A stretch of 41,414 bases of DNA from Kiritimatiellota bacterium (lineage in GTDB: Bacteria > Verrucomicrobiota > Lentisphaeria > Oligosphaerales > JAADHN01), in the NCBI GenBank assembly GCA_013151865.1, contig JAADHN010000156.1:1-41414 (forward strand). The letters run 5' to 3'. Below, piece by piece: positions 9,594 to 26,034 of the stretch. The position numbers were made by a program, and so were the translations under genes. A model generated the notes under the pieces. It ran no database searches, was not told where the DNA came from, and worked only from the letters and a program-made list of their open reading frames with translations. Each line of letters begins with the position of its first letter. Positions within the stretch are counted from its first letter, which is position 1.

Positions 9594-11465
9594 TCATCCG
9601 CCGCCCGGTTTGCTCTTCCGACCCGAACTCGCCTCGACCGTTTCTATTGCAGCCCGTCCCCGGGCGCTCTCCCCCCGGTCGCCTCCCGTCGGCGTCGCTC
9701 GAGGCGGGGCGGACGTCCGTTCGATGCCGATAATGGCCACGTCGTCTTGGAGCCCTCCCGCGGGCGCGTTTTCCAGCGCGTGACCCATCAGACGCCGCAG
9801 GATGCGCCGAATTGAATCCGTCCCGAATTCTCGACAGATTCGCTCCAGCGGCGTCAGTCCGAGGAGGTTCCCGTCCGCATCCGTAATGTCGGTCAGACCG
9901 TCGGTGTAGCAGATCAGTTTCCACGCGGGTGGAAATTCGGCATCGAAGTCGGTGAATTCTGCATCCGGGTACACGCCGAGCATCAGGTCGTACGTTTCGA
10001 GAAAGCGAACCGTGCCTTTCGGACCAACGAGAATGGGGGGACAATGCCCTGCGGCGGCGTATCGAAACCGGTTCCTGGCCAAGTCCACGCGTCCGAAAAG
10101 GACTGTGAGATACATCCCGAACCGTTCGAGATCAGGGCATACGATACGGTTGAATGCCTCGAGAAAACGAGCGGGCGAACCGCGGTGGCGGAGGTGAAAC
10201 ACACTGCGAAAAGCCATGTGGGCAATAATGGAAAAGAATGCCGCGGACATCCCCTTGCCCATGGCATCCGCCATCACGAAATCCAGCGTTCGCGGCCCCC
10301 GAACGTGAAACCCGATGTAATCGCCCCCGACCTGCCGGGCGGTCTCGATTTCGGTCTCGACGCGCAATCCCGGGATCTCCGGGAGATCGGTCGGGTACAG
10401 TCGTCGCTGCAGGTTTCGGGCGATTTCAATCTCACGCTGGGCCAATTGGGTCCGCACCACTTGATCGTACAGCCGCTGGTTCTCGAGACCGACGCCGGTT
10501 TGGTCGGCCAAGGCCTGAGCGACTTTGACCTCGCCGGACACGAAGCCGGAGGGTCGGTCGCTCCCCCCCAGCAATAACGTCCCCAAAAGCGTTTCTCGGC
10601 CCTTGATGGGCAGACAAACCACAGGCGTGCCGTCGTCCAAGAAATGCATGGCCTCCAGGCCGGTCCTGGCCACTTTCTGTTCGATGCCGGCCTCGTCGAG
10701 GGACAGGGACGCCGGCGGCGGGGTCTCCGTCCCGTGCGCGGCACGAAGTTCGAGCCCTTTTGCAGTGAGCAGCCTCAGCACACCCCATTTGGCCTGTGCG
10801 CACTCGAGTGTCCGGCTCAGGACGTTTGCAAGCAGTACATCCTCTTCGACCAGGGCACTGACGTCCTGGCTGAGCGTGTAGAACATGTTCAGGCTTTCGT
10901 AGGCCGCAGAAAGCTCCTCGGCCATCTGCCCGACCGTCCACTCGCTGGTCGCGAGTTTCTCGCGTAACGCCGTAACAGCCTCGGGGGAATGATCCCGTTC
11001 GGCGACCGCCCCCGACTCAGCGACGGCCTGATGAAGTTCCTCCGGCAGACGCTTGACCAGTTCCAGACGATTGCGGTCGCCTTGCCGGGTGTGTCGGACC
11101 TCGTCCATGGTACTCCGGATCAAGAACACGCCCCAGCCGCCTTCCGGGACGTCCGCCAGCGAATCCCAGCGCAACGGGGGAGCGCCGACTTCATCGATTT
11201 GGAACGAAATCGGAGCACAATCCTCGATTCGAAAGTAAAGGCAGTCTTTCCGGCGTTGAATGCTCAGCCAGACGGGTTGGTCCGCGGCTCCGCGGTAGGC
11301 ATGTCGCACAATGTTGTTGCACGCCTCGGTGATGGCCAGTTCAACATCGTGGCAGTCGGGATCGGCGAGAAGGCCGGAACAGGCGTTGCGGCAGAAGCAA
11401 GCGGCGCGCCTCACCCCCGCGAGCGTGCTGCGAATGCAAAGGGAACGGATTTCGCCGGGTTCCAT
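9594..11465 (-). CDS. Fused RsbW-like HATPase, GAF and SpoIIE/RsbU PP2C phosphatase protein
   Basis: The 623-residue cytoplasmic protein has three parts. Residues ~10-140 are an RsbW/SpoIIAB-like HATPase with N-box ELAITEACNNIVRHAY and a glycine-rich GGWGVFLIRSTMDEV; the first ATP-site motif (EDCAPISF) is atypical. Residues ~205-345 are a GAF domain (LLTAKGLELRAAHG, VCLPIKGRETLLGTLLLGG), followed by a helical linker (QREIEIARNLQRRLYP). Residues ~375-600 are a SpoIIE-type PP2C phosphatase with VGGDYIGF, MADAMGKGMSAAF, AAAGHCPPIL, YTDGLTD and DDVAII metal-site motifs. It would carry opposing anti-sigma kinase and phosphatase activities on a STAS protein. The obvious candidate is the one at 20640, in the same chemosensory locus. 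The ATG at 11465 has only a weak ribosome binding site. Confidence 0.9.
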   Translation of the reverse strand: MEPGEIRSLCIRSTLAGVRRAACFCRNACSGLLADPDCHDVELAITEACNNIVRHAYRGAADQPVWLSIQRRKDCLYFRIEDCAPISFQIDEVGAPPLRWDSLADVPEGGWGVFLIRSTMDEVRHTRQGDRNRLELVKRLPEELHQAVAESGAVAERDHSPEAVTALREKLATSEWTVGQMAEELSAAYESLNMFYTLSQDVSALVEEDVLLANVLSRTLECAQAKWGVLRLLTAKGLELRAAHGTETPPPASLSLDEAGIEQKVARTGLEAMHFLDDGTPVVCLPIKGRETLLGTLLLGGSDRPSGFVSGEVKVAQALADQTGVGLENQRLYDQVVRTQLAQREIEIARNLQRRLYPTDLPEIPGLRVETEIETARQVGGDYIGFHVRGPRTLDFVMADAMGKGMSAAFFSIIAHMAFRSVFHLRHRGSPARFLEAFNRIVCPDLERFGMYLTVLFGRVDLARNRFRYAAAGHCPPILVGPKGTVRFLETYDLMLGVYPDAEFTDFDAEFPPAWKLICYTDGLTDITDADGNLLGLTPLERICREFGTDSIRRILRRLMGHALENAPAGGLQDDVAIIGIERTSAPPRATPTGGDRGESARGRAAIETVEASSGRKSKPGGG

Positions 11466-11761
11466 GGAAGGCCCCGCTGCTGCCGCGAACGCTCGGCCCG
11501 CACGGCAGAGAGATCAGGCAGGACGAACAGAGACAAACCGCGACCGAGTCGCCCCCCTCAAGGGTCGAGAAGCACGGCGCCAAGCTCCGTCCGCCCGACG
11601 GGACGCATTTGGGAGCGGGCCCGGACGGCGATGCTTCCAAAAGGAAACCGAAGGGGCGCGTGGGTAAAAAGCTCCCTCCGCAACCCCATCCGACACATCG
11701 GAAGGAACCGGCCGGCCCCAAGCGAAACCGGTGGAGGAAGCCAGGGCTCTGCGGTCGCGAC

Positions 11762-12337
11762 TCACGTATTCTTACGGGCCCGCAGAAAAAACCGCACCCA
11801 GTCCGCCACGCCCTTCTGTCCCCGGGCATCGTATTTGGCGTTCTGGGTACATGATTCTTTGGCCACTGTCACGATCGGATTATACCGGGCCCTCTTTCCG
11901 TGAACACTCTTCTTTGTGAAGAGCACGCCCCGCTCACCGCTGGAACTCGACAGAACGACAATGGGGATGCCCTGGGGGCGCCCCCGGGCCTCGTAATCTT
12001 TCCGCAGGTTCTCGATGAGATCCCAACCGTCCATCACCGGCATCTCGAGGTCGGTAATGATGACCGACGGATCATTCTCATAGTGCTGACGGATCTGGGC
12101 AAGTTTCTCCAGGGCCTCCTCGCCGTTTTCCGCCTCGTAAATCACGATCTGGTCGTTGACGGAACGAACCAGTTGAACGACGACCTTGCGGACCACCGCA
12201 GAGTCTTCGACCACCAGAACGGTCCGACTCTTGGGATTGCCCTTGCGCTCGAGGTCATCAACCAATTTGTGGTAGGTATTCTCCGCCGCCTTTCTCTCAG
12301 GGTCGCTGGCCCGGTTTTCGGTAGTGCTGTTCGCCAT
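11762..12337 (-). CDS. Stand-alone response regulator receiver protein with atypical C-terminal segment
   Basis: The 191-residue protein has a ~35-residue charged N-terminal extension followed by a CheY-like receiver. Seen are LVVEDSAVVRK with acidic Glu44/Asp45, the phosphoacceptor Asp96 in IITDLEMPVMDGW, and the switch residue Ser130 in VVLSSSS. After Ser130 the usual short helix is replaced by a basic stretch (TKKSVHGKRARYNP). The conserved lysine is probably Lys160 in TVAKESCT, followed by a basic tail with no DNA-binding domain. It is likely the CheY-type output of the adjacent CheA. I chose ATG 12337; an upstream in-frame ATG at 12355 is also possible. It lies 503 bases after cheR and 296 bases before the phosphatase gene, so it may be transcribed separately. 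Confidence 0.85.
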   Translation of the reverse strand: MANSTTENRASDPERKAAENTYHKLVDDLERKGNPKSRTVLVVEDSAVVRKVVVQLVRSVNDQIVIYEAENGEEALEKLAQIRQHYENDPSVIITDLEMPVMDGWDLIENLRKDYEARGRPQGIPIVVLSSSSGERGVLFTKKSVHGKRARYNPIVTVAKESCTQNAKYDARGQKGVADWVRFFLRARKNT

Positions 12338-12840
12338 AATGCTCCATACTCCCATGCTGGCCGGGGCGTCGAGCCGGCGTCCGACCTCGAAAACCGCCCT
12401 CCCGGACTCCCTGCCGGCCGGACACACGTGTACAACCCCGACGAGACCGCCCCTCTGTCTGCGCCCGGCCCCGACGGGACGATGCTCTTTCCACGGCCGT
12501 TTCGAACCGGGGTCCGCGCAAGCACCCGGAGGCGGCGGACTCGACCGCCATCACCACCCCAGCGTGCAGTCCGCAGGGATGCCGGACAATTACGACCCGC
12601 TCCGGGCGCGGACCACAGTCGCGCCACCGGAACGAACCACGGATGGCAGACTGTCGGAAACTGTCCGCCGAGCGACGACGTCGGTCTCTCCGGTAAATTG
12701 GGACCTTCTGCGGGAAGTTTCAAGGCCGGTCGACACCATTTCTTCCGGATGCCCTGTTTTTTTTCGGAAAGTCGACCGCCGGGATTCCCCGTGTCCTCGC
12801 GTTTCCACCACGGAATCCCCGTGTTGGAGGCCGTGCCGGT
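12338..12840. other. Intergenic region between cheR and the receiver gene, 503 bp
   Basis: No supported gene was found. Downstream of the cheR stop the minus strand carries two near-copies of ACACGGGGA.TCC within about 45 bases, the second of which can pair with the first (GGGATTCC and GGAATCCC). Further on are the distant arms GGTCGAC and GTCGACC near 12730-12780, which bracket a T8 run on the plus strand. A TTGAAA hexamer on the minus strand (12718-12723) lacks a good -10. The region could hold a processing site or a weak terminator and promoter. Confidence 0.4.
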
Positions 12841-13695
12841 TCAGATCTCTTTGGGGACGGGCACGTAATAAGTGGTGGCCCCTTCCTGGACCGCCCGAAA
12901 GTCCGGCGTCAGACCGATCAGACTCTCGCTCGCCCCCATGATCAAACACCCCCAAGGCGGCAGCAAACGATGAAACTGTTCCAGAACTTGGGATTTGATG
13001 TCGGTAGGGAAGTAGATGATGACGTTGCGGCAGAAGATAATGTCGAAAGGCCCGATGTAAGTAAACCGCTCGGCGAGGTTGAGTCTGGTGAAGCGAACCA
13101 TGTTGCGAATGGTTTCGTGAATGCGCCACTTGTCGCCGTGCCGCGCGAAATACTTTCGCAGGAAGCTCGCCGGGAGGTAACGGCCCAGGCCGGTCTTGGT
13201 GTACTCCCCGATCCGGGCTTCTTCGAGCACAGGCTCTGCGATGTCGACCCCGACAATGGAAAAATCCTCGGGCCTGAATTTTGTCTGGGTCCGCGTCCAC
13301 TCCTTCACGCAAATCGCGATGGAATAAGGCTCCTGACCGGCACTGCAGCCGCAGGAGAGGATGCGAATCGGCGTGGATTCCTTGCCGCGAGCGGCGTGCT
13401 CGGATGTCACGCCGGGAAGGATCTTTCGCATAAAGACATCAAAGGGGTGCCAATCCCGGAAAAAACTGCTTTCATGCGTCGTCATGGCCTGAATAAGATG
13501 GCGGCGGAGGGCGGCGTCTTTATCAATGGCCAAACGCTTGTAGAGCGCCCCGTAGGAATCGAGGCCTTCGCTGTCCAGGAACTCCCGTAACCGGGTCGTG
13601 AACAGGTAGCGCTTGTGCGGCAGGATGTCGATCCCGCAGTTGTCCCGAAAGTAGTTGCGTAGCAACCTGTATTCCATGTCGCTCAGTTTGATCAC
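12841..13695 (-). CDS. cheR: CheR-type MCP methyltransferase
   Basis: The enzyme methylates glutamates of methyl-accepting chemotaxis proteins using S-adenosylmethionine. The 284-residue product has the N-terminal helical CheR domain (residues ~5-75, ending with MTTHESSFFRDWHPF) and the Rossmann methyltransferase domain. SAM-site motif ILSCGCSAGQEPYS is near residue 110, DIIFCRNVIIYF near 218-229, and GASESLIGL near 250. The start is a GTG at 13695 that overlaps the cheB stop in a GTGA, so translation is probably coupled; ATG seven codons further is an alternative. No TPR domain follows, unlike some alternative-pathway CheR proteins. The substrate is presumably the MCP encoded two genes upstream. 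Confidence 0.95.
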   Translation of the reverse strand: MIKLSDMEYRLLRNYFRDNCGIDILPHKRYLFTTRLREFLDSEGLDSYGALYKRLAIDKDAALRRHLIQAMTTHESSFFRDWHPFDVFMRKILPGVTSEHAARGKESTPIRILSCGCSAGQEPYSIAICVKEWTRTQTKFRPEDFSIVGVDIAEPVLEEARIGEYTKTGLGRYLPASFLRKYFARHGDKWRIHETIRNMVRFTRLNLAERFTYIGPFDIIFCRNVIIYFPTDIKSQVLEQFHRLLPPWGCLIMGASESLIGLTPDFRAVQEGATTYYVPVPKEI

Positions 13696-14822
13696 TTCAC
13701 TCGTCCTACGATTTCCGTGAGCCGTCGTGCAATCTTGCGGAGGGGAAGAACTTCATCCACGGCGCCCTGCTGGACGGCGCTGCCGGGCATCCCCCAGACC
13801 ACTGAAGAATCCCGGTCCTGGGCAAGCGTGACGGCCCCTTTGCTTTTCAGGGCTTTCAGCCCTCGGGTCCCGTCGTTGCCCATTCCCGTCAGAATGGCCG
13901 CCACGACCCGCCGCTTGCACACACGAGCGGCGGAAAGAAAGAGTACGTCGAGGGACGGACGCGGCACGGCGTCCGTTCGCACTTGATCGACGATTCGGAA
14001 ACAGAGTTCTCCTCCCCCGGATGCAGCCAGTTCGGCATCGTGTCCGCCCGGCGCGAGCAGGACTTGACCGGGCTTGAGCGAATCACCGTCCCGTGCCAGG
14101 CGCACGGCGAGTTTCGAAAGCTTATTCAGCGCCGTGGCCATGTATTCCGTAAACAGCGGCGGCATGTGGAGCACGCACACGATCGGGACTGGGAAATTCG
14201 CCGGCAGTTTTTTCAGAATCTCGACCAGGGCCTCCGGGCCGCCCGTCGAACCGCCGATCAGGACCACGTCGAATGTGTGCTCTGCCCGGAGGCGCTCGAC
14301 GTCTGCCGCCACGCGTTCGGGCAAGACGGCATAGATGCCGGACCCCGAATCGTTGCTGCCGGCACCGCCGGCAATTCGAATTTTGGCGAGGCGGCTGTAG
14401 CGCTGTACGGAACAGCAGCGGACCTTTGGCAGGAGGGAAGCGCGCAACCGTCGGCCCAGCGGCTTCTGACGGCACGCCCGGGGCGACTTGGTGATCAGGT
14501 CGAATGCACCGGCCTCGAGCGCCTCGATCGTGCGCCGGGCCACGGCGGGGTTTTCCTGGGCGACCACGATTACCGCAGCCTCCGGCAGGGACGACCGCAG
14601 TTGGATGATGAAATCGGCCGGGGAAATGTCCGGCAGTGATGCGGAAAGGAGCACGACTTCCGGTTTGGTTTGAATCGCCAACTGTAACCCGGTCACGCCA
14701 CGCTGACAGGATCCGCAGATGTGGACGTCGGGCGCACCGGAGAGCGCTTCACGAATAGCGTCTCGACAGAAAATGTCCTCCTCGACAACCAAGATTCGGA
14801 TTTGTTGATACTGTTCTTTCAC
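13692..14822 (-). CDS. cheB: CheB-type methylesterase with degenerate receiver domain
   Basis: The enzyme removes methyl groups from (or deamidates) MCP glutamates. The 376-residue product has the standard order: receiver (~8-120), linker, and C-terminal esterase (~185-370). The esterase catalytic triad is intact: Ser in IGGSTGGPEAL, His in CVLHMPPLFTEYM, and Asp in LTGMGNDGTRGL. The receiver is altered. The phosphoacceptor position is Ser60 (EVVLLSASLPD in place of LLDV.MP), the Thr/Ser switch position is Ala88, and the acidic pair is Glu14/Glu15, while Lys112 (LITKSP) is kept. CheA phosphorylation therefore probably does not gate this enzyme in the usual way. Translation starts at a GTG (14822) preceded by AAGG, 110 bases after the MCP gene, and overlaps cheR. 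Confidence 0.93.
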   Translation of the reverse strand: MKEQYQQIRILVVEEDIFCRDAIREALSGAPDVHICGSCQRGVTGLQLAIQTKPEVVLLSASLPDISPADFIIQLRSSLPEAAVIVVAQENPAVARRTIEALEAGAFDLITKSPRACRQKPLGRRLRASLLPKVRCCSVQRYSRLAKIRIAGGAGSNDSGSGIYAVLPERVAADVERLRAEHTFDVVLIGGSTGGPEALVEILKKLPANFPVPIVCVLHMPPLFTEYMATALNKLSKLAVRLARDGDSLKPGQVLLAPGGHDAELAASGGGELCFRIVDQVRTDAVPRPSLDVLFLSAARVCKRRVVAAILTGMGNDGTRGLKALKSKGAVTLAQDRDSSVVWGMPGSAVQQGAVDEVLPLRKIARRLTEIVGRVK

Positions 14823-14932
14823 TGCGCCTTGTTTCGTTGCAGGGCACCATTGAGTTCCTGGGGTCGGAGTTCGCCGCGAGCGCGCAGGTCGTGCCGGTTC
14901 CGGCCCGCCGAAGCGTGGGGATGACCGGGGTG

Positions 14933-16495
14933 TCAGTCGCCGTTGTTCTCGCCGACCATGTCCCGAAGCTCATCCGCCGCGTCGCGGACGCGCTCGACGG
15001 TCTGCATCAACTGCTGCAATTGTTCTTTGCCGGCCAAACTGGCGTCCTTGGCGCTGCTGGTCCGACGCTGAGCCTCGGTGACCATATCGGAACTCTCGGC
15101 GAGTTTCCGGGTGAAGTCGGTGACCGACGTTGCGGCCTCGGAAATGTTTCGGGCCACTTCGTTGGCCCCGGTGGCGATCTCGCTGATGACTTTCGAGACT
15201 TGGCCGGTCCCGGCGGCGGATTCGCTGGCACTGCGCGAGACTTGTTCGACGCCTGCCGCTGCTTCGGTCACGTTCCGGCTGATTTCCTGAGTGGCCTGTT
15301 CCTGCTGTTGCACCATGCCGGCAATGGCCTTTTGCAGTTCGTCGAGCTTGTTGATCACCCCGGTAATGTCGTGTATCGCGGCCACGGCCCGGGTCGTCTT
15401 TTGCTGAATGTTCCGGATCCGTTCGGTAATGTCCTCGGTGGCCGAGGCCGTCTGTTTGGCCAGTTCCTTCACTTCGTTGGCGACCACGGCGAATCCCTTG
15501 CCCGCCTCCCCCGCGCTCGCGGCTTCGATGGCCGCATTCAAAGCCAGCAGATTCGTCTGCTGGGCGATTACCTGGATCACGTTCACGACTTTACCGATTT
15601 CCTCGGCGCTGCGCCCGAGTTCGGTCACGATGGCCGTGGTCTCGCCGGCGTCTTTGGCCGCGGTTTCGCCTACCTTCGCCCCCGTTTGCGTGTGCTCGGC
15701 AATCGTGCTGATCGAAGACGCGATGTGTTTCAAAGCGCCGTCGATGGTAGCCAAATTACTGGAGAGTTGTTCCGAAGTCGTGGCCAGCGTCGACATGTTC
15801 ATGCCGACCTGCTCGACCGAGGAAGCCGCTCCGGTAATGTTGGTGGAAATTTCTTCGGCAGCCGTGGCGACCAACGAAATGTTCGACGATAATTGCTCCG
15901 CCGTAACGGCCAAGGAATGAGTGGTCTGATCATAAGCGCCCAAGACATTGAGGGCGCCGTCGACTTCTTTCGCGCTTCCCTCGATCGAGGCGAGCTGCTC
16001 CGTGCACAACTCGAGCTGACGTGCAGTGGTTTCCGCAATCCGGTCGGCCTGGGCGCGCAATCGCTGCAAGACGGCATCCAAACGCGCGGTCTTCTCCACG
16101 AGCTGATTGGCGTGCTCGAGTTCCTCGGCAAGCTCCATCTGTTTGGCCACCGCCTCATTGTAGGCGTCGGTGAGAGCCTGCATGTGTTTCTCGACTGCGC
16201 TGTGCCGCAAGCTGCCGGTACGCGTGTTCCGGTAGAGTAAGCCCAAGGCCAGGACGGCGCACGCGATCCCCGCAATCAGGACAATCCCCTCGATCAGGGT
16301 CGCAATCGGCGGCGGAAGAAACGTCCCCACATACAACAGTCCCATGAACACCATAAGAAGTACGATCAGGGCGCCCATGGCCAATCCCTGTCGGGAAATC
16401 CCCACAGGTCGCAAGAGGATTTCGGGCGCATTCACCGGCGCCACGCTCACCACCTCCCGCTTCATCGGTACCATGCTCTGCGGTTCTTTGTCCAT
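14933..16495 (-). CDS. Methyl-accepting chemotaxis protein without periplasmic sensor domain
   Basis: This 520-residue inner-membrane transducer has two hydrophobic segments (~39-60 and ~64-88) separated by about three residues, so essentially no periplasmic ligand domain exists. No HAMP domain is evident. A long coiled coil (~100-500) carries the conserved hairpin tip near 312-352 ([19 protein letters not shown], then [17 protein letters not shown]), which docks CheW and CheA. The C-terminus ([13 protein letters not shown]) lacks an NWETF-type CheR/CheB tether. The input is likely cytoplasmic, membrane-related, or comes from a partner protein. It lies between cheW (72 bases) and cheB (110 bases), so it is probably the dedicated receptor of this array. 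Confidence 0.93.
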
Positions 16496-16567
16496 CTCAG
16501 ACTCTCCTCGCTTTCCCTAGGTTGTTGCCATCGTATGACAAGGCCGTCGGCTCCACTCGGCCCCGCG

Positions 16568-17041
16568 TCAATTGGTCAGCAGTTCCGCCGCATTCAGCAC
16601 CACCAGCGTGCGCCCCTCCAAGTGGACGACGCCCTGCACGAACCGGGCTGCCTCCCGCTTCAAGTGCGGCGGCGGCGGCGCCACCGAATCGTCTTCCAAC
16701 GTAATGACATCGCCGATCCGATCCACGAGAAATCCCACCGGTTTGTCCCCAAAGACGTTCGAGTCCGCTCCAGACTCGGCAAACCGCGACCGCCGCAACT
16801 CGGCGGCAGTCCGTAAAATGATAATCCGCGAATCCGGCGTGACCTTCCGGGGATCGCGTCCGAACACGACCGCGACGTCCACCACCAACACCACCTCGCC
16901 GCGGATGGTCACCAGACCCCGAACATGCCTCGCGGCCCGCGGAACGGGCGTAATGTCCGTGTTCGCACTGATTTCCTTCACCACGAGCACATCGAGCCCG
17001 TAGAACGTCCCTCCGAGGTCGAATGAGATGAACTGAACCAT
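16568..17041 (-). CDS. cheW: CheW-type adaptor protein
   Basis: This 157-residue cytoplasmic scaffold couples receptor hairpin tips to CheA. It has the typical CheW layout: FISFDLGGTFYGLDVLVVKEI at the N-terminus, VRGLVTIRGEVVLVVDV (the conserved region around the receptor-binding surface), VGFLVDRIGDVITL, and VQGVVHLEGRTLVVLNAAELL near the C-terminus. An insertion of about ten charged residues (ELRRSRFAESGADSNVFGD) precedes the VGFLVD strand. The ATG at 17041 has GAGG 8 bases upstream and lies 10 bases after the cheA stop, so cheA and cheW form a tight transcriptional pair. Confidence 0.95.
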   Translation of the reverse strand: MVQFISFDLGGTFYGLDVLVVKEISANTDITPVPRAARHVRGLVTIRGEVVLVVDVAVVFGRDPRKVTPDSRIIILRTAAELRRSRFAESGADSNVFGDKPVGFLVDRIGDVITLEDDSVAPPPPHLKREAARFVQGVVHLEGRTLVVLNAAELLTN

Positions 17042-17051
17042 ACAACGAACC

Positions 17052-20000
17052 TCAAGACTGTTTTACTGGCGCGGCGACGTCGGGAGAGCAGCATTTCAGG
17101 ACCGCTTCGAGCACTCCCTCGCGGTCCGACTTGCTCTTGCAATCCCAGAATCCGGCGTCCAGCGCCGCTTCCCGCACCCCGGCGCGGAGGCCGGTAACCG
17201 CCAGCAGAGGCAAGGACGCGAATCGGCGGTCTCTGGCCAGGGCGTGCGCCAATTCCAACCCGTCCATTCGGGGCATCTCCAAGTCGCTGATTACCAGGTC
17301 GAACGCCTTCTGCCGAATAGCGTGGAGCGCTTCGCGTCCGTCCGACGCAAACTCGATCTCCAAGCCTGTTCCGCTGAGGTAAGAGGCCAAAAGCAAACGG
17401 GAAAACGGGGAGTCGTCTGCTATGAGAATGCGCTTGCCGGCCAGCCCCTCCTCGATCGGCAGCCAGCCCGGATAGACCGTCTCGATGATCCCATACACAT
17501 CGAGCATAAGCGAAAGGCGGCCGTCAATCAACTGCGATCCGGTAATGCCGGGTCGTTTCATGGCCTGCAAATCCGCCTGAGGCGGCATCTCCACGTTGTC
17601 GATGATCCGGGACGCCAGGATGCCGAAGGGACGGCTGGACTTGGGGATGATGGCGTAGAGGGCGCCGTCCGGATATCGCGGTGCAAGCCCCTGGACAATC
17701 TCTTCGAGGCGGATCAGAGGGATCGGGGCGCCCCGGAATTCGAGGTACTCACGGCCGTTGGCGGTCTGGATGCGGTCGACCGGGACTTCCTCGACACGGA
17801 TGATCAGACACAGCGGAATGGCAAAGAGTTCCTGCGTCCCGACGTCGAACAGCAGGATCGTCCGCGGTTCCAATGTCGGGCTGCGCTGGCCCACGACGGT
17901 TTCCTGCCCCTCGGCGAAACGAAGAGCGCTGAGTTGGGCGATGGCCGCAACGTCCACAATCAGAGCAATCCGCCCGTCTCCGAGCACAGTGGCCCCGGCA
18001 AACGCGTCGCAATCCTTGATCTGGTGGTGCAGCCCCTTGACGACGATCTCCTCGGTATCGACGATTTCATTCACCAGCAATCCGAATTGTTCGGCTCCGG
18101 CCCGCACGACCACGATATGAACATCCTGCTGCTCCGTCGGTCCAGCCTGCTCGGCGACAACATCCCCTTGCTCCGTGCGTTGCGCCTTGGGGAGAAGGGC
18201 GGTAACCGGCGGTCCCTCATCTTCTTCCTCGGCTTCTTCCCCAAAACTCGATTCCAGGACGTTCTCCAGCCGCACGATGGGCAGCAACTGCCCGCGCAGC
18301 CAGTACACTTCCTGGCGGTCCACTTTCTGAATCGCGTCCGCAACCGTGGGGCCCTGCAGCCAGACCACTTCCTTGATCTTGGTCTGGGGGATCGCCAGGC
18401 AGGCGTCGCCGGCTCGGACAATGAGCGCCGGGATGATCGCCAGAGTGAGGGGCAGACGAACGGTAACCGTGGTGCCGCGGCCGGGGGTGGAGGTGATTTC
18501 CGCGCTGCCGCCGATCCGCTGAATGCAGGCCTTCACCACGTCCATCCCCACGCCGCGGCCGGATAGGTCGGTAACGACTTCGGACGTCGAGAACCCCGGC
18601 TCGAACACCAGGGAGAAGGCCTCGCGCTCACTCAGCTCGGCCGCTTCCTGCTCCGTGAGCATCCCCTTGCGCACCGCAGCCTTCCGCAACTCGTCAGCGT
18701 CCATGCCGCGACCGTCGTCCGAAACCTCGATATGCACTTGGTCACCCCGATGCGACGCTTTGATTCGGAGCCGTCCTGTCGGCCGCTTGTCTTTGGCGAT
18801 CCTCTCCTCGGGACTTTCGATACCGTGGTCGGCCGCGTTCCTTACAAGATGCAAGAGGGGGTCCGCAATGGCCTCGAGAATGTTCTTGTCCAGTTCCACC
18901 TCACCCCCGCTGAAAACAGGTTCGATTTTCTTGCCGAGTTGTCGTCCCAGGTCGTGGATCACCCGCTTGAACCGCGCAAATACCGTACTGACCGGCCGCA
19001 TCCGCGTCTGCATGATCGTGGCCTGCAGGTCGCTGGTCACCACGTTCAGACGCTGACTGATCGAACGGAGTTCGGCGATGTCTTTTGCCTGCACCGCCTG
19101 GATGTTCTGGTTCCGCACAAGGACCAGCTCCGTGGCCAGATTCATCAGACGGTCCAGCAACGTGATGGGAATCCGGATGGATTGGGCCTGGGCATCCCCG
19201 CCGGCCTGGACAGGAGCTTCGACAGCGGACGCCGGCGCTTTTGACGGTACCGGCGTTTGTACTTCCCCGGGAACGTCGGCCGGCGGCGAAGCGGACGGCG
19301 AACTCGACTCAGACGCGGGCGGTCCGGAAGAAACTTCCCCCGGTCCGGCCCGGACGGAACGCTTCTCAGTGAGTTCTTTCAGTTTCGCCAGTTCGTCCGA
19401 AATGGGGATCTCGTCGTCTTCCGGGCTGAACAGCAACATCCGCAACGCGTCCAACCCCGCATAGGCCGCGCCCAGAACCTCATCGTCCACGGGCGACTGT
19501 CCGTCGCGCACCAACTCGGCCAACCCGGCCAGGGCTGCAGCCAAATCAGCAATTCGGGTCAGGCCGCACTTTTGTGCCCCCGTTACCATATTCTTCAGGA
19601 TCGCCGCGAGTTCCCCTGCCGCGCTTTGAACGTCGGCGCCCTTGGCCTCTTCGAGCGTGGAGAGCGCGTCGGCCGCCGCCATGACCTGCTCATTGGCGTC
19701 CCCGAGAAAATCGCGCAGCGTGTCGGCGTCCGTCGACGAAGCCTCGTCCGCCGCCGTGGCCTCTTCCTGCCCTTGGTCCCCTGCGCCGAGCACGGCCTCG
19801 AGCCGTTGAAGTTCGTCGCTGATGTCCACCGAGTCGTTTTGCAAGTCCGCGAGGAACGTCCTGAGTCTGTCGATTCCCCGCAAGAGAGGATCACTGACCT
19901 CCGCTCCGGGCTGGAGCTTGCCGGCCCGCAACGACCCGACCACGTCTTCCATGGCGTGGCCGAGCCGGGCAAACGTCGTGAACCCCAGCAGTCCCGCCCC

Positions 20001-20159
20001 CCCCTTCACCGTGTGAAGGGCCCGAAACAGCCGGTCGATCAGCGCAGGGTCCGCGCCCGCACCGGACTCTTCCAGCGCGAGGACGTCCTCCTCGGCGGTC
20101 GTCAGCAACTCGGTTGCTTCCGCCACGAATTGATCGATGAGTTCTGGGTCGGTTTCCAT
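17052..20159 (-). CDS. cheA: Hybrid CheA histidine kinase with extra Hpt-like, double CheW and receiver domains
   Basis: This 1035-residue kinase is much longer than classical CheA (~650). Domains in order: an Hpt domain with phosphorylatable His49 in FRALHTVKGGAGLLGF; an acidic linker; an Hpt-like repeat (~146-265, LTRIADLAAALAGL) in which the His position is Lys; a Pro/Ser-rich linker; the P3 dimerisation helices (~325-385, RIPITLLDRLMNLATELVLV); an HATPase with NAADHGIE, DDGRGMD and GRGVGMDVV; a CheW-like domain (~577-743) with an acidic insertion; a second CheW-like domain (~763-890); and a receiver (~908-1030) with ADDS, phosphoacceptor Asp near 958 in VISDLEMPRMDG, and a later Lys. No P2 CheY-binding domain is evident. 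The ATG at 20159 has GGTGG 8 bases upstream. A strong promoter lies ~450 bases upstream. Confidence 0.95.
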   Translation of the reverse strand: METDPELIDQFVAEATELLTTAEEDVLALEESGAGADPALIDRLFRALHTVKGGAGLLGFTTFARLGHAMEDVVGSLRAGKLQPGAEVSDPLLRGIDRLRTFLADLQNDSVDISDELQRLEAVLGAGDQGQEEATAADEASSTDADTLRDFLGDANEQVMAAADALSTLEEAKGADVQSAAGELAAILKNMVTGAQKCGLTRIADLAAALAGLAELVRDGQSPVDDEVLGAAYAGLDALRMLLFSPEDDEIPISDELAKLKELTEKRSVRAGPGEVSSGPPASESSSPSASPPADVPGEVQTPVPSKAPASAVEAPVQAGGDAQAQSIRIPITLLDRLMNLATELVLVRNQNIQAVQAKDIAELRSISQRLNVVTSDLQATIMQTRMRPVSTVFARFKRVIHDLGRQLGKKIEPVFSGGEVELDKNILEAIADPLLHLVRNAADHGIESPEERIAKDKRPTGRLRIKASHRGDQVHIEVSDDGRGMDADELRKAAVRKGMLTEQEAAELSEREAFSLVFEPGFSTSEVVTDLSGRGVGMDVVKACIQRIGGSAEITSTPGRGTTVTVRLPLTLAIIPALIVRAGDACLAIPQTKIKEVVWLQGPTVADAIQKVDRQEVYWLRGQLLPIVRLENVLESSFGEEAEEEDEGPPVTALLPKAQRTEQGDVVAEQAGPTEQQDVHIVVVRAGAEQFGLLVNEIVDTEEIVVKGLHHQIKDCDAFAGATVLGDGRIALIVDVAAIAQLSALRFAEGQETVVGQRSPTLEPRTILLFDVGTQELFAIPLCLIIRVEEVPVDRIQTANGREYLEFRGAPIPLIRLEEIVQGLAPRYPDGALYAIIPKSSRPFGILASRIIDNVEMPPQADLQAMKRPGITGSQLIDGRLSLMLDVYGIIETVYPGWLPIEEGLAGKRILIADDSPFSRLLLASYLSGTGLEIEFASDGREALHAIRQKAFDLVISDLEMPRMDGLELAHALARDRRFASLPLLAVTGLRAGVREAALDAGFWDCKSKSDREGVLEAVLKCCSPDVAAPVKQS

Positions 20160-20639
20160 TTTGATCCACCCGAACGCGATTCAAGGATGAACGCCAGTAC
20201 CGGGGCCCGCATCCGTAATCACAACTCGTGCCGGTGCGGGAGACTCCGGCGTCCCGGTAGCTCATTCAGCCCGAAGCCTCCCGCAAACGGCCCGGGCGAT
20301 AACGGAGAACCCGCGAGCCAATCGGCCTTCCAGACGACACTGAGACAATCGGCCTCCAGATAAAAAAGCAAGCTCCCGACAAAGTCTCGCACCGACTTCA
20401 TGCTGGGAGCGACCGGAGTGCATTCAAGGGCCCGCCGGCGGCGGACAGTATGGATGGTGCGCACCGCGCGCCTGGTCGAAAACTCCCTTCGTCCACACCG
20501 CGGCTCCGGGCCGGCGGCCCCGAGCCTACCGCGAATCGCCCACAACCCCTTGCAAGGCCTACGGTTAATCGCCTGAAATCAGTGTAGACACGATGAGCTT
20601 CCGGACGGGCATTACTTATACACGAGAATCCGGTCGCCG
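20160..20639. other. Intergenic region and long leader upstream of cheA, 480 bp
   Basis: This stretch lies between the STAS gene and cheA. At its upper end is the cheA promoter, from which a leader of about 450 bases would be transcribed. The leader holds a perfect 10-base palindrome CCTTGCAAGG (20548-20557) and a possible 60-codon frame (20219-20401). I recognise no known riboswitch. Confidence 0.5.
20219..20401 (-). CDS. Possible small protein in the cheA leader (doubtful)
   Basis: A 60-codon frame from ATG 20401 encodes MKSVRDFVGSLLFYLEADCL followed by a Gly/Pro-rich tail ending PHRHEL. The N-terminal half looks protein-like, but no ribosome binding site precedes the ATG and no family is recognised. 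It would end 59 bases before the cheA start. It could be a leader peptide or simply chance in a GC-rich region. Confidence 0.2.
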   Translation of the reverse strand: MKSVRDFVGSLLFYLEADCLSVVWKADWLAGSPLSPGPFAGGFGLNELPGRRSLPHRHEL

Positions 20640-20643
20640 TCAA
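20615..20643 (-). promoter_or_regulatory. Sigma70-type promoter of the cheA operon
   Basis: On the minus strand, TTGACG (20643-20638) and TATAAG (20620-20615) are separated by exactly 17 bases, with one and one mismatch to consensus at the most conserved positions. The -35 hexamer overlaps the STAS stop codon. The predicted transcript starts near 20608 and reads into cheA. Confidence 0.6.
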
Positions 20644-20954
20644 ATCGCTCCACGCGCCTGCTCCACGGTCTCGAAGATGTCGAAAAGCCGGTAGAGGCGC
20701 GTCAATTCGAAAATCTGCCGAACCTGCGGGGTGAGCCCGGCAAGAGCCAGCGGCGTTTCCCGCTGAGAGGCACTCTTGAGCAGGTTGACCAACGTCCCCA
20801 GCCCGACACTGTCCACGAATCTCGTCCGCGAGAAATCCAAGACGATCCCCACTGCTTCATCCAACGCTGCCTGAATCTCGACTTTCAGCGCGTCCACGCT
20901 GGCGGAATCAAGGCGCTCCGGCACAGTGACTACCCGCGTGTTTTCTCGATCCAT
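20640..20954 (-). CDS. STAS-domain anti-sigma-factor antagonist (SpoIIAA/RsbV type)
   Basis: The 104-residue single-domain STAS protein is the switch component of partner-switching systems: unphosphorylated, it binds an RsbW-like kinase and frees that kinase's other partner. The conserved loop reads TRFVDSVGLGTLVNLL, with Ser49 at the phosphorylation site found in DS[ST]GLG of SpoIIAA and RsbV. The ATG at 20954 has GGAGG about 10 bases upstream. Its expected kinase and phosphatase are both domains of the protein encoded at 9594, at the far end of the same gene cluster. Its position just upstream of cheA suggests it is part of the chemosensory pathway. No sigma factor gene is in view. Confidence 0.93.
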   Translation of the reverse strand: MDRENTRVVTVPERLDSASVDALKVEIQAALDEAVGIVLDFSRTRFVDSVGLGTLVNLLKSASQRETPLALAGLTPQVRQIFELTRLYRLFDIFETVEQARGAI

Positions 20955-21014
20955 AACCTGCCGTCCTCCGGGTTGGCGAATGTGGGGCGAATCGCGCGCA
21001 TTGGATGTTTAGAC

Positions 21015-21039
21015 AAAAAAACGGAAGATATGTCTTCCG
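21015..21039 (-). terminator. Terminator-like hairpin in the STAS gene leader
   Basis: On the minus strand, CGGAAGA and TCTTCCG (7-base arms, 21039-21022) enclose a 4-base loop and are followed directly by seven T residues (21021-21015), the form of an intrinsic terminator. It lies 61 bases upstream of the STAS start and downstream of the proposed promoter, so it could act as an attenuator or stop antisense transcription entering from the right. Confidence 0.5.
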
Positions 21040-21057
21040 CAAAGACCGCACGGTAGT

Positions 21058-21085
21058 ATTGTACCCAAATTGACGGTCATGGCAA
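21058..21085 (-). promoter_or_regulatory. Sigma70-type promoter candidate for the STAS gene
   Basis: On the minus strand TTGCCA (21085-21080) and TACAAT (21063-21058) are separated by 16 bases, each hexamer with one mismatch to consensus. Transcription would start near 21051, about 97 bases before the STAS ATG and just before the terminator-like hairpin. Confidence 0.45.
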
Positions 21086-21142
21086 GCCCCGGCCCCAAAA
21101 GAGCGCCGACCCCGCCGAGGCCCGGGGGAAAGGAGGACGCCC

Positions 21143-21484
21143 GTGTGCCCCAGATCCAATGCCCGAATCCAAGCCGTCTATCGGCACTTGTCCCGTGAGT
21201 ATCAGATCGACGGCGCCGAACTGGATGAACTCATGGGGGCCGTACGCATCAATCTCGCCGAACTCCGCGACGAGATGCACCGCTGCCTCGACGAAAAGCA
21301 ATGGGACGAGCTTTGTCGTGTGGCACACTCGGTCAAAGGAGTGGCCTCCAACCTGGGACAGGAGGAAATGCGTCGGCTCGCCCTCGTCCTCGAAAAAGAG
21401 TCCGGATCAGGAGCGGAGAACAGGCTCCGGAAAGTCGCCGCCGGTTTGGGCCGCCTGTTTGCCGAGCTGGGAGTAGAGGAATAA
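21143..21484 (+). CDS. Stand-alone Hpt (histidine phosphotransfer) protein
   Basis: The 113-residue protein is a single Hpt four-helix domain that relays phosphate between receiver domains. The signature RVAHSVKGVASNLG places the phosphorylated histidine at His62, followed by the typical helix EEMRRLALVLEKES. The start is a GTG (21143) with a strong AGGAGG six bases upstream. It is transcribed away from the STAS gene and CheA. The receivers of CheA (C-terminus) and of the protein at 11762 are the obvious partners, which would make a His-Asp-His-Asp relay possible. Ninety-six bases separate it from the heptose adenylyltransferase gene; co-transcription is possible but functional linkage is not evident. 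Confidence 0.9.
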   Translation: MCPRSNARIQAVYRHLSREYQIDGAELDELMGAVRINLAELRDEMHRCLDEKQWDELCRVAHSVKGVASNLGQEEMRRLALVLEKESGSGAENRLRKVAAGLGRLFAELGVEE

Positions 21485-21580: not shown

Positions 21581-22138
21581 ATGCGCCGGCCCGAAGACAA
21601 AATCATGCTGCAAAGAACCGCGGTCCGATGGCGCCGCCGACTGGCCGACAGCGGCAAGGTCCTCGTGATGACCAACGGTTGCTTCGACCTGCTTCACCGC
21701 GGCCATGCCGAGTACCTGAATCGGGCCCGGGAACTCGGCGACGCCCTCCTCGTCGCGGTCAACACCGACGCCTCGGTCGCGGTCATCAAAGGTCCGGCTC
21801 GCCCCGTGGTGCCGGAGGCGGACCGTGTTTACCTGGTGGCCAGTCTCGAGAGCGTCGATGCCGTCGTCCTTTTCGGCACACCCGAGCAAACAGATGCCTG
21901 CCCGCTGCTGCGGCTCCTGAGGCCGGAGATATACGCCAAGGGAGGGGACTACTCCGAGGATACGATCAATCGCCGGGAACGCAGACTGCTGCAGGAATTG
22001 GGCTGCCGAATCGAGTTCGTCCCCTTCGTTGCCGGCCTGTCCACCACCGAGCTGATCCGTCGCGTCGTGCGACTGACCGAAGAGGGAACTCACGGTCCGC
22101 CCAGGCAGCGGACGCCGCCGTCCATCGAAGACAGGTAG
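21581..22138 (+). CDS. rfaE2: D-glycero-beta-D-manno-heptose 1-phosphate adenylyltransferase
   Basis: The enzyme makes ADP-heptose from heptose-1-phosphate and ATP for the lipopolysaccharide inner core. The 185-residue product corresponds to the C-terminal cytidylyltransferase-fold domain of HldE. Visible are MTNGCFDLLHRGHAEYL with the nucleotidyltransferase HxGH motif (His39, Gly41, His42), VAVNTDASVAVIKG, RPEIYAKGGDY, and AGLSTTELI near the C-terminus. The kinase half is not adjacent, so it must be a separate gene elsewhere. The ATG at 21581 has AAGGAA about 8 bases upstream. Its last 49 bases overlap the 3' end of the convergent 22090-26034 gene, so the final ~16 residues (HGPPRQRTPPSIEDR) are constrained by two frames. 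Confidence 0.93.
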   Translation: MRRPEDKIMLQRTAVRWRRRLADSGKVLVMTNGCFDLLHRGHAEYLNRARELGDALLVAVNTDASVAVIKGPARPVVPEADRVYLVASLESVDAVVLFGTPEQTDACPLLRLLRPEIYAKGGDYSEDTINRRERRLLQELGCRIEFVPFVAGLSTTELIRRVVRLTEEGTHGPPRQRTPPSIEDR

Positions 22139-25100
22139 AGACGCTTGCCCGCGGCAATCAGCCCGTCCCACACGGGGGGCGACGCCAGTCGCAACTCCCC
22201 GAGTTTCGCTCCGCTCCCGGCGGCCACCGCCCAGAGCACGCCCCCGGATCTTCCTGCCAGCGCGGCCTCTTGCTGTGCCACTTCCTTGAGTCCGGCCGGT
22301 GCGAAGAGGCGCCGCACAGCCCGGGTCTCGTCCATAAGGTCCGCAGGTCCCGCAATGAAAAGCCGCGCTTCCGGCGTTCCCGCGGCGGTCAAGACCATGC
22401 CCCGGACCAGAATGGGAACGTCGGCCGTCCACCGGTGCGGTACACTGTACCCGGGCGTTGTCTCCGGACCGGTCGGCGCGGCGCCGGCAAACGCCAAGGC
22501 GCGCCCCACTTTTCCGCCCACGACTTTGGCATTCTCGATCCGACCGTGGTTTCCTTTCCCCGATTCGTCCCTGGCCCGACCTCCGTCGAACGGCAGGAAC
22601 AGAACCAGGTCCACCTCTTCGGGCCGGGTCGCGCCCGGGGCCTGGACAAGGGCCTCGATCTCGGCCCCGGCCAGGGCACGCCGGTAGACCCGGACCTGGT
22701 CGATGGCACCCTTGAAGCCGCGCATGGTTTGGTACTTTCCGGCAGGTCCGCCGTCGTCCAACCCGATCTGGGTCGGTTCGATCGGGGTCTTGGAAATCAA
22801 GGGGACCCCCGTCTTTTCGCCGGCAAGTCGACCGTCGACGTAAACCCGGAGTCGACCGTCACGCGCGAGTACGCCGCACAAATGACTCCAAATCCCGCTC
22901 GGAAGCTTGCGGACAGCAGCGGCCTCGAACACTTTGTGCGAGACCGTCACCGCGAAGCGAGGGCGACCGCCGCGCAAGTACAGGGAATAGCCGTTGATGG
23001 CCGCGCCGCGGGCCACGACCACGCCCTCCCCGCGTTCCGGCTTGACCCAGGCCGCGACCGTAAGCGGTCTGCCCGCAGAATCGAGACTCGGAGAGTTTTC
23101 GATGCGGACACAAGAAACTTTGGCCGAAATGGGAGGCTTCCGGGGGGAGGACCCTGCGGCGAGAGGCGCTGAAAAAAGCTGATATTCCATGGGCGTGGTC
23201 CACCGGTAGAACTGCGGTTTTCGACCGTATCCGTAGACCGTGTCCTTGTCGAAGCAAAGGATGCGCCCGGCCGGTACCAGTTTGCCGGAGAGGTAGTATC
23301 CGGACCAACCGCTCGAGAACTTGCGGCCGTAAATCCAGTACGACCTCTGAAACCAGGTATCGTCCAAAAAGCCGGTGGGACTGAAAAGATGTCGCCCGGG
23401 CCCGGACTGGTCCGCAGCCACCACGCCGGGCCTATCGCTTTTGGGAACGAGGTCGTACCGCCTGCCGGTCAGGTCGAACCGCTGACTCCGCATGTAAATG
23501 AAGGCGCCGTCCGAGGACAGGACGTCGGGCAGGGCCACGGGCATATTGAGCCATTTGACGTCCGTGTGCAGGTCTTTCCCCGTCGCCGGATCCAGATTGC
23601 CCAGTACGAGTTCCCGGACGACCCGGCCGGTCCGGGCGTCCAGTTCGAGCCAACGCAATCCGCCATCCAGAAACATGGAGCGCCCGGCCACAAGCCAAAC
23701 GGTGTCTCTCATGACCAGCACGCTGCCGTGTATCGGCCAGACAGACTCGAGCTGCTCGGCAGCCACGAGCTGCACATTGCTGGGGGCCGCCCGAAAACGC
23801 CAGTTCAACCGGCCGTCGCGAGCGTCCAGGCAGTATACGGCCCCATCCCGGCACCCGAAAAGGACGCGGCCCCCGGTCACGGTGGGCGGCGAATCAATAC
23901 GCCCGCCCGCGGTGAACCGCCAGAGGATCCGCCCCGAATCCATATCCAGGGCGTACAGCGTGTGCCGGTCCGTCTCGGCCACGTACAACCTGCCGGCCGC
24001 CAGGGTCGGCGCGGTAAGGCGTCCGTGGAGACGCGTCGTCCATTTCTCCACGAGCCGAGCCGGCGGCGCGGCGGAGGTGGCGCCGCTGCGGGTCGAGTCG
24101 TGACGGTAGGTCGCCCACTCCGCACCCGGGCCCGAGGCGCCGGGCTCGGAGCCCGTACTTGCGGGTCGAATCGCCGTCCCTTTTTCAAAACGATCGCCCC
24201 GTACTCCGTATACGATGCCGTCCGTGGACCGGGACGGCGCCGTGGCATCGAACCCGGACAGCTTGGATTCGGCATAGCAAATGCACGGATGCGGCGGCGT
24301 GTAGATGAGTCCGTTGCAGGGCATGATGCCGTAGGAACAACTGCCCCGGATCCAGTGGTTCAGGGTCCAGTGCTTCCGTTTCAGATCGATGAACTCGATG
24401 CCGGTCCGGGAAGTCAACAAGAAACGGTCCGTCGCGCGCCCGCGGTAGCAGCGATGATGAAACCAATAGGAAACCACGTCGGGTTTGAACTGACTGACCA
24501 GGTTGCCGCTGCGGATGTCACGACCGGTGACAGTACCGGCCAACCCCCCGTTCGACGACTCGTCGAACCACACCGTATTGCCGATCACGAATACATTCTC
24601 AGGGGAGCTGTAACCGGAAGGCGGATGCGGCGCCGTCCAAAGCACCGCGCCGGTCCGAGCATCCAACCCCGTCAGCGTGTCGGATTTCGTCGCACCGCCG
24701 GTCGATTTGACCAGCCCGGATTCCTCGCCGCCCGCAAAGAGGACGACGCCTTGCCGCACCACCAGCGTCGGGGCGAAGAACGACATGATCCGCCGGCAGC
24801 GCGGCACAGGCTTCGAGCGCCAGAGTCGCCTGCCGGTCCGGCGATCCAGGCACACCACGGAATCGCCGTCATGAAAATAGACACCCCGGTCATCGACGGC
24901 CAACGTCAGCGGCAGCACAGGGCTCGACACGCGCCAGAGTTCCCGCCCCGAATCCGCGCGGAGGCCCACGATGTCCAAACTGCGCCCGTCCCACCACGGC
25001 CGGCGCACGGCGCGGGGGTCCGTGTACTTGGCCATGTCGAACTGCGGGTCCGCCAGTACGAAAAGATCGCCTTTCGAGCATAGAATCTCCTCCGCCCCTT

Positions 25101-26034
25101 TCGTCCCGGGGTAGGTGCGCAAAGTTCTCCCATCCGCAGCGTCCAAAACGCTGACCGGCACGTTCAGACCCAGAGTAGCGTAAACCTCGTCGCCCACTGC
25201 CACCAAATGTCGGGGAAGCTGGGCCGGACCGCTCTTGAGAGACCACATCCGCGTCTCCCACGCCGGAATCGAACGTTCCCAAAGCAGTTTCCCGTTGAAC
25301 GCGTCACGGCAAACCAGGGCCCAATGCGACGGCAATAAGATCGAAGCGAGGGAGCCGAGATCGATGATCTGAAACACGCGGTTTCCCGCAGAAACCAGTG
25401 CCGTAGTACTCGAGACGTGATCGTGATGCCGGCTCCACTTGGGGCCTGCGCGCCATTGCAGATGACGCGGTGGCCCCACCACGGTATCGTGGGCCACGGC
25501 GTTATTCCCGGGATCGTGCAGGTAATGGGTCCATTCGTCGATGTTCTTCGGACGCGGCTTGACCACTTTCCGCCACGCGTCCTTCTCCCGGATGTACGCC
25601 ACGCCTCCCGGTGCAAGCACACGCAGCATTTCCCCCTCGGGGACCGCCCCACCGTCGGTTGCCACGATCAGGTTTACCATGTTGTCGATGTAGGGGAGCA
25701 CGCGGCCCGAAAGCCGACCGGCGGTCACCGGCCCGTACAACCCCAGTTCCATGATGGTGTCCCGGGCCCGACGCACATTCTCCGGGGTCGGATCCAACCC
25801 TTGCACCAAGAAGGTCTCGTCGGCACGCAACGCCGCGGTGAGACGCCCGTCGCCGCACCCCAAATGGACGACAACGCCCCCGTGCACCCCCGTCGCCTCG
25901 AGTATCCCTCGCGCCGTCTCCGCCGGGGACGGAGCCGCCGCCACGGACAGGACGCCGGCCAGACAAACCAAGACAAAAGCGCGGCACACTGTGCGTGCGC
26001 CGGGGCAAAACACCGTGTGTGGATGGACTCTCAT
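22090..26034 (-). CDS. Giant secreted protein: methyltransferase-like, PQQ-type beta-propeller and LamG-like domains
   Basis: The 1314-residue product starts with a signal peptide (residues ~1-34, hydrophobic AFVLVCLAGVLSVAAA). Residues ~40-150 resemble a class I SAM methyltransferase: VVVHLGCGDGRLTAALR, then VQGLDPTPENVRRAR and LRVLAPGGVAYIRE. From ~185 there are repeated PQQ/quinoprotein-like propeller blades (DAFNGKLLWERS, DRRTGRRLWRSKP, DARTGAVLWTAP, DMDSGRILWRFTAGG, DARDGRLNWRFRA). A concanavalin/LamG-like domain (~970-1135, LTVAAWVKPERGEG, LRVYVDGRLAGEKTG, AIDQVRVYRRAL) is inserted before final blades ending LYLSSMDGGVRCLGGP. I infer an extracellular or periplasmic protein binding glycans or metabolites; the role of a methyltransferase fold outside the cytoplasm is unknown. 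AAGGGA precedes the ATG by 9 bases. Confidence 0.85.
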   Translation of the reverse strand: MRVHPHTVFCPGARTVCRAFVLVCLAGVLSVAAAPSPAETARGILEATGVHGGVVVHLGCGDGRLTAALRADETFLVQGLDPTPENVRRARDTIMELGLYGPVTAGRLSGRVLPYIDNMVNLIVATDGGAVPEGEMLRVLAPGGVAYIREKDAWRKVVKPRPKNIDEWTHYLHDPGNNAVAHDTVVGPPRHLQWRAGPKWSRHHDHVSSTTALVSAGNRVFQIIDLGSLASILLPSHWALVCRDAFNGKLLWERSIPAWETRMWSLKSGPAQLPRHLVAVGDEVYATLGLNVPVSVLDAADGRTLRTYPGTKGAEEILCSKGDLFVLADPQFDMAKYTDPRAVRRPWWDGRSLDIVGLRADSGRELWRVSSPVLPLTLAVDDRGVYFHDGDSVVCLDRRTGRRLWRSKPVPRCRRIMSFFAPTLVVRQGVVLFAGGEESGLVKSTGGATKSDTLTGLDARTGAVLWTAPHPPSGYSSPENVFVIGNTVWFDESSNGGLAGTVTGRDIRSGNLVSQFKPDVVSYWFHHRCYRGRATDRFLLTSRTGIEFIDLKRKHWTLNHWIRGSCSYGIMPCNGLIYTPPHPCICYAESKLSGFDATAPSRSTDGIVYGVRGDRFEKGTAIRPASTGSEPGASGPGAEWATYRHDSTRSGATSAAPPARLVEKWTTRLHGRLTAPTLAAGRLYVAETDRHTLYALDMDSGRILWRFTAGGRIDSPPTVTGGRVLFGCRDGAVYCLDARDGRLNWRFRAAPSNVQLVAAEQLESVWPIHGSVLVMRDTVWLVAGRSMFLDGGLRWLELDARTGRVVRELVLGNLDPATGKDLHTDVKWLNMPVALPDVLSSDGAFIYMRSQRFDLTGRRYDLVPKSDRPGVVAADQSGPGRHLFSPTGFLDDTWFQRSYWIYGRKFSSGWSGYYLSGKLVPAGRILCFDKDTVYGYGRKPQFYRWTTPMEYQLFSAPLAAGSSPRKPPISAKVSCVRIENSPSLDSAGRPLTVAAWVKPERGEGVVVARGAAINGYSLYLRGGRPRFAVTVSHKVFEAAAVRKLPSGIWSHLCGVLARDGRLRVYVDGRLAGEKTGVPLISKTPIEPTQIGLDDGGPAGKYQTMRGFKGAIDQVRVYRRALAGAEIEALVQAPGATRPEEVDLVLFLPFDGGRARDESGKGNHGRIENAKVVGGKVGRALAFAGAAPTGPETTPGYSVPHRWTADVPILVRGMVLTAAGTPEARLFIAGPADLMDETRAVRRLFAPAGLKEVAQQEAALAGRSGGVLWAVAAGSGAKLGELRLASPPVWDGLIAAGKRLYLSSMDGGVRCLGGP

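Follow-up and report, generated by a model that had tools for sequence, protein, structure and literature searches.

A 41,414-nucleotide stretch of DNA from a Kiritimatiellota bacterium (assembly GCA_013151865.1, contig JAADHN010000156.1; hereafter, the window) encodes a non-flagellar chemosensory cluster lodged within an older partner-switch module. This module consists of an Hpt phosphotransfer protein, a STAS protein of the anti-sigma-factor-antagonist type, and a HATPase-GAF-SpoIIE fusion protein that ends in a PP2C phosphatase domain. The parts, the pairing of STAS with the fusion, the nested layout, the lack of FliG, and the presence of one CheA locus and one methyl-accepting chemotaxis protein (MCP) can be read directly from the genome. 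From these observations we propose, with a probability of about 0.6, that the chemosensory array steers the STAS switch by way of a stand-alone receiver or the Hpt protein.

Results

Proteins translated from the window were scanned with Pfam. All nine genes at the locus were located on the expected strands, with STAS, hybrid CheA, CheW, MCP, CheB, CheR, a receiver and the fusion on the minus strand and Hpt divergent on the plus strand. This is the gene list and order given in a preliminary description of the same DNA.

21143–21484, plus strand: Hpt phosphotransfer protein with the motif AHSVKG, divergent from STAS (Pfam Hpt, 2e-9)
20640–20954, minus strand: STAS protein, anti-sigma-factor-antagonist type; the phosphorylatable Ser is residue 49 in DSVGLG (Pfam, E = 6e-19)
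20160–20639, minus strand: gap of 480 bp between STAS and CheA, the first joint between partner-switch module and che block; no useful open reading frame
17052–20159, minus strand: CheA hybrid kinase with Hpt, a second Hpt-like region, dimerisation domain, HATPase_c, two CheW domains and a receiver (Pfam, motifs)
16568–17041, minus strand: CheW (Pfam, 3e-27)
14933–16495, minus strand: MCP, signalling domain (Pfam MCPsignal, 3e-34)
13692–14822, minus strand: CheB methylesterase; the acceptor Asp is absent from its receiver (Pfam CheB_methylest, 3e-61)
12841–13695, minus strand: CheR methyltransferase (Pfam, 3e-51)
12338–12840, minus strand: gap of about 500 bp between CheR and the receiver, the second joint; no useful open reading frame
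11762–12337, minus strand: stand-alone receiver (Pfam Response_reg, 3e-14)
9594–11465, minus strand: fusion of HATPase_c_2 (RsbW-like), GAF and SpoIIE (PP2C) domains (Pfam)

A distance of 9.2 kb, containing the che genes, separates STAS from the fusion. A third large gap, of about 300 bp, separates the receiver from the SpoIIE fusion, and large gaps are confined to the joints. The DNA of the joints contains no convincing flanking repeats and no excess of promoters or terminators, both joints lack homology to the fetched relatives, and Rfam gave no match. That the layout is an artefact of assembling a fragmented draft genome, probably metagenome-derived, is very improbable. The genome (6.2 Mb, 97% complete) does consist of 176 contigs, and the joined layout was seen only once, but an artefact would require two false joins in a block of 9 kb, both coinciding precisely with gene boundaries, and the GC content is fairly even across block and flanks (0.57–0.68).

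Each feature expected of a partner switch is present: a STAS protein with a phosphorylatable Ser, a kinase of the RsbW/SpoIIAB type, and a PP2C domain with metal-binding Asp residues. The STAS protein scores above the curated cut-off for anti-sigma-factor antagonists (TIGR00377, 61.8 bits versus 53.45), and its residues D48, S49 and G51 are invariant across 11 STAS proteins. The fusion matches HATPase_c_2 (2e-20) and SpoIIE (1e-38) in Pfam, which finds no receiver domain in it. PDB profile searches led to RsbW (6m36, 3e-17), SpoIIAB and the PP2C domain of Pseudomonas aeruginosa RssB; the same RssB domain (3f79) is also the best PP2C fold match of an AlphaFold2 model of the fusion (mean pLDDT, predicted local distance difference test score, 73.7). 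Among seven orthologs the kinase residues E47, N51, D82, G110 and G112 are invariant, with the G1 box degenerate in the window (EDCAP), as are the PP2C metal-binding residues D382, D400, D522, D574 and D575. Judged by these residues, the fusion is predicted to be a bifunctional kinase/phosphatase of STAS.

The fusion family occurs in 11 of the 198 genomes of our class sample, the window's own included. In all ten other carriers STAS lies directly 5' of the fusion with a gap of −4 to +70 nt. The window STAS is 49–60% identical to the six fusion-paired STAS proteins first aligned versus 19–25% to che-linked ones, and it groups with the former in a tree (support 95/87). Its closest relative and that of the fusion are both found in genome G017 (60% and 47% identity, respectively). 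It is strongly supported by this adjacency and the common STAS subfamily that STAS and the HATPase-GAF-SpoIIE protein are a cognate pair, in line with the preliminary description, which had named the latter as putative kinase/phosphatase of the former.

None of these ten genomes has che genes beside the pair. Two of them (G395, locus L126, and G414, locus L176) carry a divergent Hpt gene upstream of STAS-PP2C, placed as in the window and with no che block there. Since ten of ten relatives pair STAS with the fusion in this way, two of them with the divergent Hpt, the Hpt/STAS-HATPase-PP2C unit is an old partner-switch module, older than its junction with the che block. The fusions in G395, G414 and G417 are shorter (about 405 residues) and match without the GAF region.

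The preliminary description had named conserved co-occurrence of STAS and fusion with this cheA type as a check, and had held beforehand that unlinked loci in relatives would speak for a chance neighbour. Our co-occurrence check found exactly such loci, so that the coupling is not conserved in the form of this gene set. Four carriers of the pair have no CheW domain anywhere (G003, G115, G119, G120), in four others the che genes lie on contigs different from that of the pair (G017, G145, G395, G414), and genome G004 has the che block without the pair. Both systems occur in G395 and G414, where the Hpt/STAS/fusion module is on one contig and a che cluster that has STAS/PP2C genes of its own is on another.

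In family f23 the fusion is followed by another RsbW-like HATPase, which stands alone (L042, 4826–5218; L043, 8053–8445; L044, 7603–8193; L125, 7890–8303), and at L125 this gene is followed by a second STAS. The stand-alone HATPase is possibly the missing anti-sigma partner.

The chemosensory core of the window is complete, with a CheA containing Hpt, dimerisation, kinase and CheW domains, together with CheW and an MCP. Motif reading shows that the first Hpt domain of CheA retains its His (HTVKG) and that the second Hpt-like region lacks it. By hydropathy the MCP has two transmembrane segments joined by a short loop, with almost no periplasmic part, and Pfam recognises neither a periplasmic sensor nor a HAMP domain; the MCP of the closest relative (G004, locus L047) looks alike by hydropathy. 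In the CheB receiver Ser replaces the acceptor Asp (VVLLSASLP), and the aligned CheB of G004 has Ala (VLVAASLT). Because the acceptor is missing, control of the methylesterase by CheA has probably been lost in this CheA subclade. The stand-alone receiver retains its acceptor Asp (ITDLEMP) in the alignment and carries an N-terminal extension; its C-terminal third is divergent, with the Pfam profile matched at positions 1–80 of 111. Its best matches are generic receivers of hybrid kinases, no close relative of it was found, and it is present neither in the che block of G004 nor in most STAS-fusion pairs.

The closest che block among the genomes searched lies on contig C225 of G004 (L047). Its CheA is 54% identical over tree columns (branch 100/99), and its genes run CheA-CheW-MCP-CheB-CheR as in the window, accompanied by neither STAS nor fusion. 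As STAS and the fusion are closest to G017 and CheA to G004, two modules of different origin meet in the window.

Across the phylum, CheA proteins with two CheW domains form one clade (99/97). Among the loci compared, which are the best matches to the window CheA and not a random choice, 16 of the 24 dual-CheW members other than the window have a linked STAS, and nine of the 24 have STAS, HATPase and PP2C. The typical switch there is a REC-PP2C-HATPase protein (REC, receiver; about 510–550 residues) or REC-PP2C with a separate HATPase, and the che-linked STAS subfamily differs from that of the window. Among single-CheW loci, 3 of 27 have a linked STAS and 1 of 27 has the full set; this last locus is only 4 kb away from partner-switch genes that belong to a dual-CheW locus. 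The difference in STAS linkage gives p = 5e-5 by Fisher's test, a value that serves only as a guide since the loci are related; dual CheW changes once on the CheA tree, which leaves an independent-pairs test without power. The window's own CheA subclade (G004, G145 C336 and G098 C85, the last on a contig that ends 563 bp upstream) shows no linked STAS or PP2C, so the window appears to have gained its STAS linkage separately, and with another switch.

Dual-CheW clusters with STAS, REC-PP2C and an RsbW-like HATPase, fused or separate, are found at L128, L130, L131, L134, L136, L137, L138, L140, L153 and L178. At L179 (G145, contig 332, from 2241) a 275-residue HATPase-STAS fusion adjoins a REC-PP2C gene and CheA; here kinase and STAS substrate are presumably combined in one protein.

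The genome contains three CheW domains, all at the window locus, and a single CheA locus; a genome search found one MCP. FliG_C has no match anywhere in the 97% complete genome, and within 9.6–21.5 kb no coding space remains for cheC, cheD or cheX, in agreement with the preliminary view that the locus lacks flagellar genes and these three che genes. Two STAS proteins are encoded. The fusion is the one clear RsbW-type kinase among the HATPase_c_2 matches; the others, read in part, comprise sensor kinases and a CBS-domain protein, and no STAS adjoins them in the stretches read. Lacking FliG and having only one MCP, one CheA locus and one clear RsbW-like HATPase, the genome offers few alternative outputs or inputs. 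Seven PilT-family matches lie over the cut-off, which makes type IV pili a possible output. Next to the locus, 22090–26034 encodes a large, unrelated protein that combines PQQ/BamB-like propellers and a LamG domain with an N-terminal part resembling a methyltransferase.

Discussion

We turn to the question of how the array may act on the switch, and infer every phosphotransfer step, as well as the target, from the parts described above. The conserved pairing and the catalytic residues suggest that STAS receives a phosphate on Ser from the HATPase domain of the fusion and loses it again through the action of the PP2C domain. Unphosphorylated STAS would bind the HATPase domain, thereby freeing a target such as a sigma factor. 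Input would most likely be supplied by the MCP-CheW-CheA array. Since the fusion has no receiver domain, any link from CheA must act in trans: CheA may phosphorylate the stand-alone receiver, the Hpt protein or both, and the balance between kinase and phosphatase activity of the fusion would shift as a result. In other members of the CheA clade the receiver that forms part of the PP2C protein itself may take that role.

The preliminary description had also suggested that the array controls the partner switch. This idea survives at the level of the class, because CheAs of the clade repeatedly adjoin another STAS, REC-PP2C and RsbW-like HATPase; it does not hold as conservation of the window's particular gene set. 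We regard the coupling of array and switch as probable. To a fuller version we would give an even chance: that the genome's only array was inserted into a pre-existing Hpt/STAS/HATPase-GAF-PP2C switch and rewired to control it, replacing the STAS plus REC-PP2C switch frequent in the clade, with taxis-type signalling that, in a bacterium lacking flagella, purely regulates gene expression or physiology.

Several observations weigh against coupling. The joined layout occurs in one genome only, in a sample that holds no second genome of the same family. The switch is present in relatives without any che system and thus needs no array, the window's own CheA subclade has no linked switch, and the receiverless fusion could be reached in trans alone. 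The joints, with gaps of 300–500 bp, leave room for separate promoters, and the seven PilT-family proteins leave type IV pili as an alternative output. Much of this evidence would also suit a che block that uses the stand-alone receiver and that of CheA to drive type IV pilus motility or some other output, flanked by an independent STAS/phosphatase pair through chance insertion: the pair stands without che genes beside it in all ten relatives, the che block of G004 exists without the pair, and large gaps mark both joints. We consider this explanation unlikely, though the strongest of the alternatives, because the insertion would by chance have had to separate the two genes of the genome's only clear RsbW-type switch and to match their orientation, and because the CheA clade recurrently carries partner-switch genes.

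A different role for STAS is suggested by CheS of Sinorhizobium, a STAS-only protein that is encoded in the che cluster of an alphaproteobacterium, binds CheA and influences the binding of CheA to CheY (PMC12654446). STAS genes occur in some alphaproteobacterial che clusters, as in the window, and adjoin cheA in many members of the window's CheA clade. By analogy, the window STAS could bind CheA and tune phosphotransfer among receivers, no longer serving as a substrate of the fusion. This is improbable, since the protein belongs by identity and tree position to the PP2C-paired and not the che-linked subfamily, and the cluster retains the partner fusion at its opposite end.

Links between chemosensory systems and partner switches are already known; in the window, the che block is joined to a switch unrelated to the one that recurs in its CheA clade. 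In Shewanella oneidensis, Che1 (an F7-type array) lies with CrsR/CrsA, regulators of RpoS (PMC9855816). In Gammaproteobacteria, the first gene of F7 stage 1 clusters encodes an anti-sigma factor antagonist, and a second antagonist gene and one for a serine phosphatase close the cluster (PMC7184735), so the layout of the window is not unprecedented. Like the window, these are chemosensory clusters that contain STAS and regulator or phosphatase genes of a partner switch, and a non-motility output has been proposed for them. Unlike them, the window has a dual-CheW hybrid CheA and a fusion with GAF and without a receiver. Their gene set (cheD, an aer2-like receptor, two cheW-like genes, cheY, STAS and a serine phosphatase) is not matched by the window cluster, which lacks CheD and any recognised Aer2-type sensor domain and contains a single cheW gene.

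The HptB-HsbR-HsbA system of P. aeruginosa couples an Hpt protein to a partner switch (PMC6482189) and shares with the window the combination of Hpt, STAS and a bifunctional PP2C/kinase. However, HsbR has its own receiver as target of HptB and is fed by hybrid kinases, whereas the window has a CheA array inside the operon and, in place of a REC-PP2C-HATPase protein, the receiverless HATPase-GAF-PP2C fusion.

Dual-CheW CheAs in the literature are nearly all of the F5 class, in which 99% of CheAs have a duplicated CheW (PMC10782961). The window CheA resembles this class in its Hpt-kinase-CheW-CheW-REC order, a likeness that comes from architecture and from best matches to alphaproteobacterial dual-CheW CheAs. 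Among its best matches on plasmids are cheA-cheW-cheB-cheR clusters of Azospirillum and Rhodovastum. Those clusters adjoin flagellar genes; the window's STAS, in contrast, is of the PP2C-paired subfamily, and its genome has a single MCP and, with no FliG_C match at 97% completeness, does not provide the flagellar output of the F5 class.

In the open literature, with most subscription papers outside the search, we found no description of a che block within a STAS-PP2C operon, nor of the association of dual-CheW CheA with STAS and PP2C in this phylum. The recurrent class to which this association points, phylum-wide chemosensory clusters that carry a STAS/PP2C/RsbW-type switch, is arguably more interesting than the window itself. 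The window offers a minimal system, with one receptor, one array, one switch and no flagellum, in which the question of how chemosensory arrays gain outputs other than motility becomes testable.

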